Shown here: piece after piece, positions 3,951-5,759 of the stretch
How positions within the stretch are numbered: the stretch's first letter is position 1
How the letters are laid out: every line of letters begins with the position of its first letter
Notes under the pieces: generated by a model
Database searches by the model: none
What the model was told of the DNA's origin: nothing
Seen by the model: only the letters and a program-made list of their open reading frames with translations
Origin: Chromatiales bacterium
GTDB taxonomy: Bacteria; Pseudomonadota; Gammaproteobacteria; Thiohalospirales; Thiohalospiraceae
Reading direction: 5' to 3'
Length of the DNA stretch: 6,990 bases
Assembly (NCBI GenBank): GCA_026984715.1
Contig: JALSRO010000458.1
Span: 1-6,990, forward strand
Made by a program: the position numbers and the translations under genes

Positions 3951-4195
3951 TATTAACCCGGCAACAATATATGTCGCATTCAGGGCTTCAGGCAGGCACC
4001 GGAACAAGGCGCAGTGCGCAGGCAAGGGTCACTCCCTCGTCGAGGTCGCTCCAGTGCATCCCTGCACCCGCGACACTCGGAGATCCTGTCCAGCGCACCG
4101 GAATGCAGGGCCGGTGCCTGCCTGAAGCCCCTAACCCTGTGATATTCAATGACAGGCCACGGCTGAATACGATATATATCGTTGCCGGGTTAATA
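3951..4195 (+). repeat. Palindromic intergenic element, copy A (245 bp)
   Basis: This fills most of the 461-bp gap between glgX and the cold-shock gene. The ends are 33-bp inverted repeats (3951-3983 and 4163-4195) with only 3 mismatches, starting TATTAACCCGGCAAC. A second, perfect 20-bp inverted repeat lies inside (3983-4002 with 4111-4130). A further nested arm CCCTGCA/TGCAGGG (4060-4066, 4104-4110) follows. A short hairpin CCTGT..ACAGG lies at about 4134-4155, between the inner and outer right arms. No coding potential is convincing: an open frame across it (3941-4381) merely reads through the palindrome. Copies B and C are homologous over most of their length. It could be a MITE-like mobile element, a BIME-type repeat, or a structured RNA or 3'-UTR module. 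No named family is recognised. Confidence 0.85.
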
Positions 4196-4259
4196 AGCAC
4201 CTTTTTCACATCTGATACCGGAGACCGGACGAAAATTTGCGGCAAACAGCGCAAAAAAC

Positions 4260-4287
4260 TTACCTCGGTAAAAAAATCGGCTACAAT
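4260..4287 (+). promoter_or_regulatory. Candidate sigma70 promoter of the cold-shock gene
   Basis: A -10 hexamer TACAAT (4282-4287, 5 of 6 to TATAAT) lies 16 bp after TTACCT (4260-4265, 3 of 6 to TTGACA), with an A-rich spacer. Transcription would start near 4294 and leave an untranslated leader of about 75 nt before ATG 4368. It sits downstream of repeat copy A, so the cold-shock gene probably has a promoter independent of glgX. Confidence 0.4.
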
Positions 4288-4367
4288 AAGTATGCCCCGA
4301 AGCTGGAAGAGAGCAGACATCTCGGTAGTTGAGGGGGCAGCATTGTATGATAAAGAGAGATTTGATT

Positions 4368-4577
4368 ATGTCAGAACGTGAAACAGGTACGGTAAAGTGG
4401 TTCAACAACTCCAAGGGGTATGGCTTTATTCAGCGAGAGCAGGGAGATGATGTCTTCGTTCATTTCCGGGCTATCAAAGGCGATGGCTACCGTACCTTGG
4501 AAGAAGGGCAGCAGGTAGAGTTTTCTGTCACGCAGGGGCAGAAGGGGCTGCAGGCTGAGGAAGTGCAACTTTTGTGA
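4368..4577 (+). CDS. Cold-shock domain protein (CspA family)
   Basis: Single-domain OB-fold nucleic acid binding protein of 69 residues, the usual Csp length. Such proteins bind single-stranded RNA or DNA and act as RNA chaperones in cold or stationary phase. TGTVKWFN lies at residues 6-13. The RNA-binding motifs are RNP1 KGYGFI and RNP2 VFVHF, followed by LEEGQQVEFSV and a terminal KGLQAEEV, all standard for the family. ATG 4368 is chosen because family members begin MS..TGTVKWFN and a purine-rich stretch (AAAGAGAGA, 4352-4360) lies 7 bases upstream. An in-frame ATG at 4347 has the stronger Shine-Dalgarno (GAGGGGG, 4331-4337, 9 bases upstream) and would add seven residues, so the start is genuinely ambiguous. 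A strong intrinsic terminator follows. It cannot be assigned to a particular csp paralogue, and cold induction is not shown. Confidence 0.95.
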   Translation: MSERETGTVKWFNNSKGYGFIQREQGDDVFVHFRAIKGDGYRTLEEGQQVEFSVTQGQKGLQAEEVQLL

Positions 4578-4620
4578 CAACAGTCTGGGCGGGCGGCTGT
4601 CCGTCCAGCTCGATTGGGGA

Positions 4621-4651
4621 AAAAGCGCCGGTGTTGCCGGCGCTTTTTTTT
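4621..4651 (+). terminator. Intrinsic terminator after the cold-shock gene
   Basis: An 11-bp perfect stem (4621-4631 AAAAGCGCCGG with 4637-4647 CCGGCGCTTTT), a 5-nt loop TGTTG and a run of eight T (4644-4651) follow 43 nt after the stop. The A-run on the 5' side would serve as a T-run on the other strand, so it could work in both directions. It separates the cold-shock transcript from repeat copy B. Confidence 0.93.
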
Positions 4652-4670
4652 ATCACGGCAACCCCTTGTT

Positions 4671-4839
4671 GAGCCGGCGACCTTATATCCTATCCAGCCG
4701 TGGCGTGTCGGCTTGCCGCAAGGCAGCCGCTCCACAACAAGATGGAGTAACGCAGCCTGAAGGCCGAAGTGTTCCTCCTTCTGCACCCTGTTCCGGCAAC
4801 TGCCCGAAGCCCTGAATGCGGCAATATCGTTACCGGGTC
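4671..4839 (-). repeat. Palindromic intergenic element, copy B (169 bp, inverted)
   Basis: It fills most of the 324-bp gap between the cold-shock gene and the small membrane gene. Its right part, read on the minus strand (from 4839), matches the left half of copies A and C. Bases 4786-4814 are identical over 29 bp to the minus-strand counterpart of 5599-5627 in copy C. Its other end (4671-4706) is degenerate but matches the right arm of copy A (GCCACGGCTG shared exactly, then an ATA..GATATA core). The middle holds a bulged hairpin at 4709-4729. Between the element and ATG 4902 lies only a short dyad AACCC..GGGTT (4853-4867), and no convincing promoter is seen. The left boundary is approximate. 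Confidence 0.75.
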
Positions 4840-4901
4840 ACCAATAATGAAGAACCCTTTGGGGGTTGAGATGGTCCAACTATCAGAATAAGGTAAGGAT
4901 T

Positions 4902-5093
4902 ATGGAGACAATGGCCGTTTGGGAACAGATACTGCTTGGATTGCTACTGGTGGTTGTTCTGGTCTGGATCTTCCCTGGTTTGAAACATACGCTCAGGAAC
5001 TCACCCAAGGCGACCGCAGCTGACTGGAAGAGCCTGCTCCTGCCAATCGGTCTTGTGGTTCTGTTCGTGCTGTTGCTTCTTTCCCTCGTTTGA
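4902..5093 (+). CDS. Small two-helix membrane protein, function unknown
   Basis: A 63-residue protein with two strongly hydrophobic segments, roughly residues 8-26 (ILLGLLLVVVLVWIF) and 45-62 (LLLPIGLVVLFVLLLLSL). They are joined by a polar, basic loop (KHTLRNSPKATAADWK), so it is an inner-membrane helical hairpin. There is no cleavable signal peptide. ATG 4902 is chosen because AAGG at 4890-4893 lies 8 bases upstream; ATG 4911 (three codons later) is an alternative, and the frame opens as far up as a TTG at 4866. It ends 24 bases before the universal stress protein gene on the same strand, so the two are probably co-transcribed. The proline-bounded loop and clean codon structure suggest a real conserved gene. 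I recognise no named family and infer no activity. Confidence 0.75.
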   Translation: METMAVWEQILLGLLLVVVLVWIFPGLKHTLRNSPKATAADWKSLLLPIGLVVLFVLLLLSLV

Positions 5094-5117
5094 ATCGGTA
5101 GACTGGAGAAAAAGATA

Positions 5118-5561
5118 ATGAGCGGTTACCAACATATTCTGCTGGCGGTGGATTTCATGCCTGGAGTGGAGAATATCTGCCAGAGGGCGCGAGAGGTGGC
5201 CGAATGCAACGGTGCGCGGCTGAGTGTCATCCATGTGATAGAGCCGGTCGTGATGGCGCCCCCCTATGAAGGCATGCCATCCCTGCCGGTGGATTTCGAG
5301 CAGCAGATGCTGGAGTCGGCAAGGGATTCGCTGCGACAACTACTCGATCGCCAGAAGATGATGGAGAGCGTCGAGTGGTCGGTGGAGGTGGGTTCGGTCA
5401 AGTGGACCATCATCGAGCAGGCTAGGGAGCAGAGGGTCGATCTCATCGTAATCGGTAGCCATGGCCGGCATGGGTTGGAGAGACTGCTGGGTTCCACCGC
5501 CAATGCAGTGCTGCATGCGGCACCATGCGATGTGTTGGCGGTGCATCTGAAAAATGGGTAA
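5118..5561 (+). CDS. Universal stress protein, UspA family
   Basis: A 147-residue single-domain cytoplasmic Usp with an alpha/beta nucleotide-binding fold. Family members aid survival in starvation, oxidative or membrane-energy stress, and many bind ATP. The N-terminal strand HILLAVDF carries the conserved Asp (D12). The second strand is ARLSVIHVIEP (33-43), and VDLIVIGSHGRHGLERLLGST (107-127) is the phosphate/ribose loop. The classic ATP-binding pattern is G-2X-G-9X-G(S/T). Here the spacing is G113-2X-G116-8X-G125-S126, one residue short, a spacing I believe is common in one Usp subgroup, so ATP binding is likely but not certain. The C-terminal PCDVLAV strand is typical. GGAGA at 5105-5109, 8 bases before ATG 5118, supports the start. 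It follows the small membrane gene by 24 bases, and its stop is only 11 bases before repeat copy C. Confidence 0.95.
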   Translation: MSGYQHILLAVDFMPGVENICQRAREVAECNGARLSVIHVIEPVVMAPPYEGMPSLPVDFEQQMLESARDSLRQLLDRQKMMESVEWSVEVGSVKWTIIEQAREQRVDLIVIGSHGRHGLERLLGSTANAVLHAAPCDVLAVHLKNG

Positions 5562-5572
5562 CGATTGCGAAC

Positions 5573-5759
5573 AACCCGGCAACAATATATGTCACATCCA
5601 GGGCTTCGGGCAGTTGCCGGAACAGGGCGCCGTGCCCAGGGAGGGGCGCTCCGGCGCACTCGTGTGCTCGCGACGGTTGGAGTTACCTTTCCGGCACGCT
5701 GGAACCCAGGATGGGTGCCTGTTCGGAGCCTGGAATAGGAGATATATCGCTGTTGGGTT
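5573..5759 (+). repeat. Palindromic intergenic element, copy C (187 bp)
   Basis: It begins 11 bases after the universal stress protein stop. The left end (AACCCGGCAACAATATAT from 5573) nearly equals that of copy A, and the right end (5731-5759) is its imperfect inverted repeat. Bases 5599-5627 are identical to copy B (minus strand). Interior blocks align with copy A throughout, for example CGCGAC, CCAGG and GGGTGCCTG near the right arm. It lacks about 30 nt that copy A carries between its inner and outer right arms. The internal inverted repeat that is perfect in A is eroded here (about 11 of 17 positions). No terminator is otherwise visible after the stress gene, so this structure might end or protect its transcript. 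Confidence 0.82.

Follow-up and report, generated by a model that had tools for sequence, protein, structure and literature searches.

The stretch examined here (hereafter the window, 6,990 nt of contig JALSRO010000458.1, Chromatiales bacterium) contains three diverged copies, A, B and C, of one palindromic element in a cluster of stress-related genes, which raises the question of whether this element is a mobile repeat or a structured module of gene 3′ ends. The host genome (G000) is a metagenome-assembled genome (MAG) of 2.14 Mb in 490 contigs and is 86.5% complete. On balance, and with some reservation, we lean towards the reading that the copies belong to a family of TA-flanked miniature elements, likely moved by IS630-type transposases, that carry an inverted pair of covarying hairpins predicted to act as RNA.

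An earlier note, made from the sequence of the window, had proposed that A, B and C form one repeat family, and pairwise matches within G000 far beyond chance bore this out (A–C, E 9.6e-18; B–C, E 6.6e-13; A–B, E 6.3e-10). A and C aligned over 83 bp at 82% identity, and B and C were complementary over 41 nt at 90%, a match that includes the 29 identical bases already described. The boundaries then given for the copies were accurate to within 2 bp. The suspected spread through the host genome was also found: queries A, C and B retrieved 93, 41 and 50 matching pieces, and a 21-base end pattern allowing up to three mismatches occurred 64 times forward and 63 times in reverse (127 matches); the reversed pattern matched in neither direction (0 and 0). 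The two outcomes named in advance as refuting the family, namely no further copies or an alignment no better than shuffled sequence, did not occur. Several contigs of G000 end inside an element (e.g., C130, C366 and C476); as the element breaks the assembly at contig ends, the copy counts for this genome are floors.

The anatomy that carries our reading was absent from the earlier note. In 18 full or near-full copies from 11 genomes, a common order of end, hairpin H2, spacer, hairpin H1 and end was observed, and the interior proved to consist of two inverted copies of one hairpin module, ca. 98 nt long. RNAalifold predicted 82 pairs on these copies, 38 of them with double changes. H2 aligned at 98 nt without a gap; under the supplied structure, 96.3% of the 648 cells were paired and double changes were present in 18 of 36 pairs. 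The 81 double-changed cells compare with 24.0 (standard deviation 4.1) in shuffles, none of 500 of which reached that number, and with 6–18 in slid structures, and the covariation score was 0.445 versus 0.176. A covariance model of H2 (R1; short calibration, rough E-values, threshold E ≤ 1e-5) also found H1, on the opposite strand and 7–27 bp from H2, at L307, L310, L311, L312 and L320. Therefore, the core consists of one module in two inverted copies. As a palindrome matches both strands to some extent, the strand call was based on the better of the two; no same-strand H1 match was listed. A wider set was formed from 84 model matches by dropping 29 overlapping ones and keeping the best per place. 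In the resulting 55 modules at 43 loci, 95.3% of cells were paired, and 548 cells were double-changed compared with 132 in shuffles (standard deviation 10, maximum 161).

Paired double changes could also arise without selection, since long imperfect palindromes are self-corrected by template switching in replication, the mechanism known as quasipalindrome mutation. Under this explanation the hairpins would be functionless, and their free decay in the host, where one hairpin or all of the core has been deleted, would fit. Template switching would erase mismatches, yet the internal loop of the module, CAAGGC facing AAC, stays unpaired and nearly constant: CAAG (columns 23–26) and AAC (columns 69–71) were unpaired and invariant in all 18 H2 copies, and CAAGGC was retained in 52 of the 55 modules of the wider set, including genomes with different ends (AACGCAG in 30/55). 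Functionless hairpins thus appear improbable.

The direction in which the module would be read may be reflected in its pairing. Along the inward strand, that is, from the nearer end, H2 contained 44 G–U and 10 A–C cells (103 and 24 in the wider set), and consensus folding favoured this strand for H2 (−65.4 versus −54.6) and likewise for H1, which lies the other way round (−48.7 versus −43.2). Folding of the inward strand, as RNA or as single-stranded DNA, would give both the G–U excess and the strand bias. Both modules point inward, so that the first module in a read-through transcript, whichever side it comes from, is a sense one. Read-through of glgX, csp and usp in the window would bring up the sense strand of the module remnants in A, B and C, respectively.

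The module is not confined to the genus of the host. R1 was used to scan 369 genomes drawn across the class (271 genera), with at most 11 candidates scored per genome so that copy numbers are floors, and the module was found in 23 genomes and 20 genera. The end types outside the genus were inspected at 24 loci in 20 genomes. Nine of these genomes had ends of the TTAACCCGG type, and the other 11 had other ends. At ten of the latter, the flanking repeats matched each other at 17–20 of 20 bases, whereas none of 63 displaced controls reached 17 (maximum 16); the eleventh (G172) matched at 15/20 bases, and its terminal repeat is unsupported. One of the ten (G374) had an unclear arrangement and was set aside. 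Its locus L313 holds two module copies, at 215–313 on the minus strand and 958–1048 on the plus strand, with ends TATACTTCTCGC unlike those of the other groups. The remaining nine genomes have clearly different terminal repeats, which by our own grouping fall into about four groups: CTAAGCCG (G068); GTGCTCC, GTGGGCC and GTGGTCC (G304, G282, G370 and G049); GGAAGCTC, GGAACCTC and GGGAAGCTC (G238, G122 and G371); and CCAAG..AACGCCGG (G269). Over the leading 20 bases of each pair, the ends of these nine agreed with the TTAACCCGG type at 4–8 positions. Under the other ends, 16 modules kept 93.6% of cells paired, with 222 double-changed cells compared with 71 (standard deviation 6, maximum 88). Plain identity of modules across end types was low (66% versus 60% for shuffled partners with the same aligner); their likeness lies in structure and loop.

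Full-copy sequence had a narrower distribution, with matches in 8/8 genomes of the genus, 0/4 other genomes of the family and 1/44 other genomes of the class (a weak match, E 5e-4). The exact end occurred in 65 stretches of a species collection labelled as Gammaproteobacteria, Chromatiales, Thiotrichales or Sedimenticola MAGs. The end pattern was found in no viral contig, a full copy had no match among plasmids and phages, and the other-end elements at L311, L312 and L308 had none among plasmids. Of ten viral stretches retrieved with the loop pattern, none fitted the module model at E 0.01, and all were read as other sequence. Taken further, the distribution might describe a class-wide mobile structured RNA, a 98-nt inverted-pair module displayed by any crossing transcript, with the module as conserved passenger and the ends interchangeable and changed several times; we offer this broader proposal tentatively.

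The ends and flanks of the elements point to how they may move. Detailed anatomy was determined in 61 stretches of G000 (191,501 bases), which contained 80 merged matches and 36 elements paired with both ends. These were 34–339 bp long (the longest 331–339 bp), leaving no room for an internal transposase, and recurring size classes were ca. 245 bp (H2 lost; window copy A included) and 284 bp (part of H1 lost). Intact copies are flanked by TA and have inverted ends of ca. 30 bp; the bases just outside the ends were T then A in 85/94 and 84/94, with a weak preference beyond, and in copies from other genomes TA stood on the left in 23 of 26 and on the right in all 26. The AT-rich core described previously corresponds to a real AT-rich part, the subterminal ATATAT, but the interior itself is GC-rich. 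MAG JALSIC (G377) holds 11 complete 281-bp copies with a mean identity of 98.9% (55 pairs, 97.5–100%), indicating recent spread. The same MAG also has tandem-like arrays of a different repeat, roughly 100 bp long (L195, L201, L202, L181, L188 and others).

A candidate for the type of transposase was found within the genus. G005 carries, at locus L211, a complete IS630 element with a 341-aa transposase (NF033545 IS630, 226.2 bits against a cut-off of 100; DDE_3, 1.4e-40; HTH_33). This element has TATTAACCCGGCAATAAAGAA ends on both sides, and both start with TATTAACCCGGCAA, as do the repeats; the ends of IS630 copies in G007, G173 and G319 begin with TTAACCCGGC, with no more than one mismatch. 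The repeats thus share their outer 10–12 bases and the TA with IS630 copies of congeners and other genera. Relatives with 42% identity carry TTAACCGTCTCA at their ends, and relatives with 35% have CTCA-type ends, so the ends follow the transposase clade. PF13358 (DDE_3) was matched in five of the eight genus members. From these sequence features, mobilisation in trans by an IS630-type transposase is likely.

As an alternative, the modules may work as DNA, the terminal repeat together with a subterminal hairpin (as a single strand or a cruciform) aiding transposition, amplification or the binding of a host factor. In complete copies the module is always placed immediately inward of an end and in the same polarity, the inward-strand preference is compatible with single-stranded DNA, and the copies in G377 are fresh. 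However, the IS630 element at L211 has 26–40 bp between end and gene and hence no room for hairpins. Moreover, core-less forms of 30–36 bp, consisting of two ends back to back, were found in 11 places (L147, L148, L150, L155, L167, L187, L189, L192, L194, L206 and L008; two with the same flanking bases), with TA on the right in 11/11 and on the left in 10/11. These forms are either deletion products or tiny mobile units; if the latter, ends alone may suffice for insertion. We therefore regard action as DNA as rather unlikely.

Insertion was further considered at ten joined host sites, for which empty counterparts were sought in 11 genomes. For the C366 site, G005 and G004 lack the element, and in each a single match spanned the junction. 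At C86, the flanks in G001 lay about as close together as they would without the element, but the gap itself had diverged; for the remaining eight sites, matches were one-sided, scattered or lacking. A 58-base hairpin with a T-run in the flank of the element on C161 of G000 recurs in 15 places in G377 and in one in G003 and forms a repeated terminator-like unit. Several flanks resembled split hairpins, but 28 of 500 shuffles attained the mean stem score observed over 32 joined sites, and a preference for palindromic or terminator targets is not claimed.

The position of the elements relative to genes was analysed for intervals of at least 60 bp in G000 (n = 70), with crude longest-open-reading-frame gene calls. 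A called gene was present on both sides of 52 intervals (28 tandem, 18 convergent and 6 divergent), while ten lacked one neighbour and eight lay at an edge; the ratio of convergent to divergent, 18:6, gave a two-sided binomial p of ca. 0.02. Median distances were 54.5 bp to gene 3′ ends (n = 70) and 100 bp to 5′ ends (n = 44), in an analysis that fills the element with stop codons and so cannot reveal insertion inside a gene. Open reading frames of at least 150 aa crossed the junction at 24 of 62 joined sites compared with 240 of 310 random points. Thus, the elements avoid coding sequence, although some genes may carry an insertion internally or at their margin.

These observations can be joined into a mechanism. 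A transposase would bind the ca. 30-bp end and insert the element at TA, as the ends and TA flanks suggest. Thereafter, the elements would be retained chiefly in non-coding gaps, somewhat closer to the 3′ ends of genes, as seen with the crude gene calls, and by the anatomy described above read-through from either side would encounter a sense module. In the transcript this module would form a 98-nt hairpin with the loop CAAGGC facing AAC; pairing and loop are conserved, and folding in the cell is predicted. A host RNA-binding protein or RNase would probably recognise the module and set the fate of the transcript 3′ end. Ends vary from lineage to lineage, likely through joint change of end and transposase, and the module would be kept for its structure. 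Of the two options in the earlier note, a mobile repeat or a structured 3′-end module, the TA-flanked inverted ends, the one empty site and the covarying interior are observed, and from them we infer both mobility and action at 3′ ends.

Several points weigh against this reading. On the side of the RNA, single-sequence fold energies were nearly equal between strands, and the G–U excess counts related sequences, leans on RNA-trained models and fits single-stranded DNA equally well. The structure used in the H2 test was derived from overlapping sequences of the same set, further pair types in H2 (43 versus 37.8) were equalled by 10 of 500 shuffles, and the rows of the wider set were chosen and aligned by the covariance model, which leans towards structure. 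On the side of movement, no DDE_3 match was found in the host G000 or in G377 with its fresh copies; among 17 element-holding genomes, eight had a DDE_3 match and nine had none. A close IS630 was present in 10 of the 369 class genomes, of which only G173 also holds the module, and no IS630 was found with the full repeat end TTAACCCGGCAACAATATATG. At the empty C366 site the target duplication was unreadable. As only the outer 10–12 bases and TA are shared with IS630, the exact parent is missing, and given this and the patchy co-occurrence, we infer IS630 mobilisation rather than observe it.

The family has several properties of miniature inverted-repeat transposable elements (MITEs), with terminal inverted repeats, short length (50–500 bp), many dispersed copies and no internal transposase, and it is filed as IS630-like MITEs by its most likely movement, the conserved inverted module pair being most likely a new feature. 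The bacterial MITEs RUP, ERIC and Correia are TA-ended with transcripts that fold, as summarised in a review (PMC2229807). Intergenic and 3′-end placement of such elements (PMC10969869) and hairpin MITEs in a sulfur bacterium (PMC4853749) have likewise been described. RUP of Streptococcus pneumoniae, for which IS630-Spn1 is the proposed mobiliser, is similarly small, intergenic and of high copy number, with TA termini and end similarity to an IS630-type insertion sequence; it is 107 bp long and, according to the review, has no further functional motif (PMC2229807), whereas the present family measures 244–340 bp and has an inverted covarying module pair common to several genera under different ends. 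ERIC and Correia/NEMIS are likewise TA-ended and palindromic; their transcripts fold and are reported to affect mRNA, including its processing, via RNase E or RNase III (PMC2229807, PMC10969869). As described there, they are shorter (127 bp and ca. 107/155 bp, respectively), and an inverted pair of one module does not figure in those descriptions. CIR of Caulobacter and Brucella resembles the family in its two long hairpin arms with a linker, kept between genera; no terminal inverted repeats are listed for it in the review, and the motif conserved in CIR is a methylation site within a loop (PMC2229807). The MITEs of Thiomargarita nelsonii, a sulfur-oxidising gammaproteobacterium, are high-copy hairpins, one with TATA termini compared with IS630; a covarying module does not figure in the description on which this comparison is based (PMC4853749). 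One module kept under different ends is in none of these descriptions, as far as the available parts of the sources extend (PMC2229807, PMC10969869, PMC4853749).

Repetitive extragenic palindromic sequences and bacterial interspersed mosaic elements (REP/BIME) also form inverted hairpin pairs outside genes (PMC2817692). It could be supposed that the present elements are large units of this kind, mobilised by a RAYT tyrosine transposase, in view of their two inverted hairpins with conserved unpaired bases and their position mainly in non-coding gaps. A REP/BIME unit is, however, a short hairpin without terminal repeats, which the family is not: typical complete copies measure 244–283 bp, in line with the earlier remark that they are longer than REPs, and have terminal repeats matching at 17–20 of 20 bases and TA flanks. 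REP/BIME units are far shorter and are not known to have terminal repeats or TA flanks. Judged by ends, flanks and length, this origin is very improbable.

Searches for a known counterpart covered Rfam and open-licence papers. No Rfam match was obtained in the window at gathering scores or in 13 loci at the Rfam cut-offs, and L181 matched microRNA models alone, far below their cut-offs. No description of the module was seen among titles and abstract starts of open-licence papers, no title on such repeats was found among open-licence papers containing the string AACCCGGCAAC, and the structured-RNA survey PMC8632094 gave no match in the part available.

The window itself contains cysH (partial, minus strand), glk, glgX, a cold-shock gene (csp), a short open reading frame, a universal stress protein gene (usp), an HPF gene and hemW (partial), named by the best NCBIfam match; csp, usp and hemW score below the curated cut-offs. 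The copies do occupy consecutive gaps, as first noted, with A following glgX, B following the hairpin and T-run 3′ of csp, and C following usp (Table 1). The predicted fold of A spans its whole 245 bp with a minimum free energy of −137 kcal/mol. R1 gave no match in the window with default filters at E 0.1; with filters off, the H2 of B was the sole match (14.7 bits, E 0.028). The window copies are decayed, A and C being without H2 and B having a damaged one, and locally they may no longer be functional. Downstream of glgX, the stretches examined from six congeners contained no match to csp, usp or the element and so offered no empty site to set against A. A second palindromic repeat lies between usp and hpf (5786–5956, ends TAACAG..TGTTGAAAA); the 191 kb of G000 examined contain nine occurrences of it, this one counted and some of them partial.

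Table 1. Positions of the element copies and associated features in the window.
Feature	Position	Strand	Remarks
Copy A	3951–4195 (element 3953–4193)	+	Flanking TA on each side (3951–3952, 4194–4195); terminal repeat, H1 module with host-specific insertion, remnant of lost H2, terminal repeat
Left terminal inverted repeat of A	3951–3983	+	91% complementary to 4163–4195 (33-nt arms)
H1 hairpin module of A	3983–4130	+	Outer arms 3983–4002 / 4111–4130, 100% complementary
Right terminal inverted repeat of A	4163–4195	-	Pairs with 3951–3983
Terminator-like feature	4620–4648	+	12-bp inverted repeat, then T-run, 3′ of csp and just upstream of B; inverted-repeat search, sequence reading
Copy B	4669–4841	-	Inverted relative to A; weak ends (5 mismatches each); large internal deletion
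Decayed H2 module in B	4697–4778	+	CAAGGC and AACGCAG retained, right arm gone
Copy C	5571–5761	+	Terminal repeat, diverged H1 module, without H2, diverged right end

Bacterial miniature elements are mostly viewed as decayed insertion sequences with a meaningless core. In the present family, the core module keeps its structure across ca. 20 genera and its loop hardly changes, while the ends lose all likeness. This makes it directly testable whether such elements persist as parasites only or via host recognition of what they encode in RNA or DNA, and the covariance model of the module can be used on any genome.

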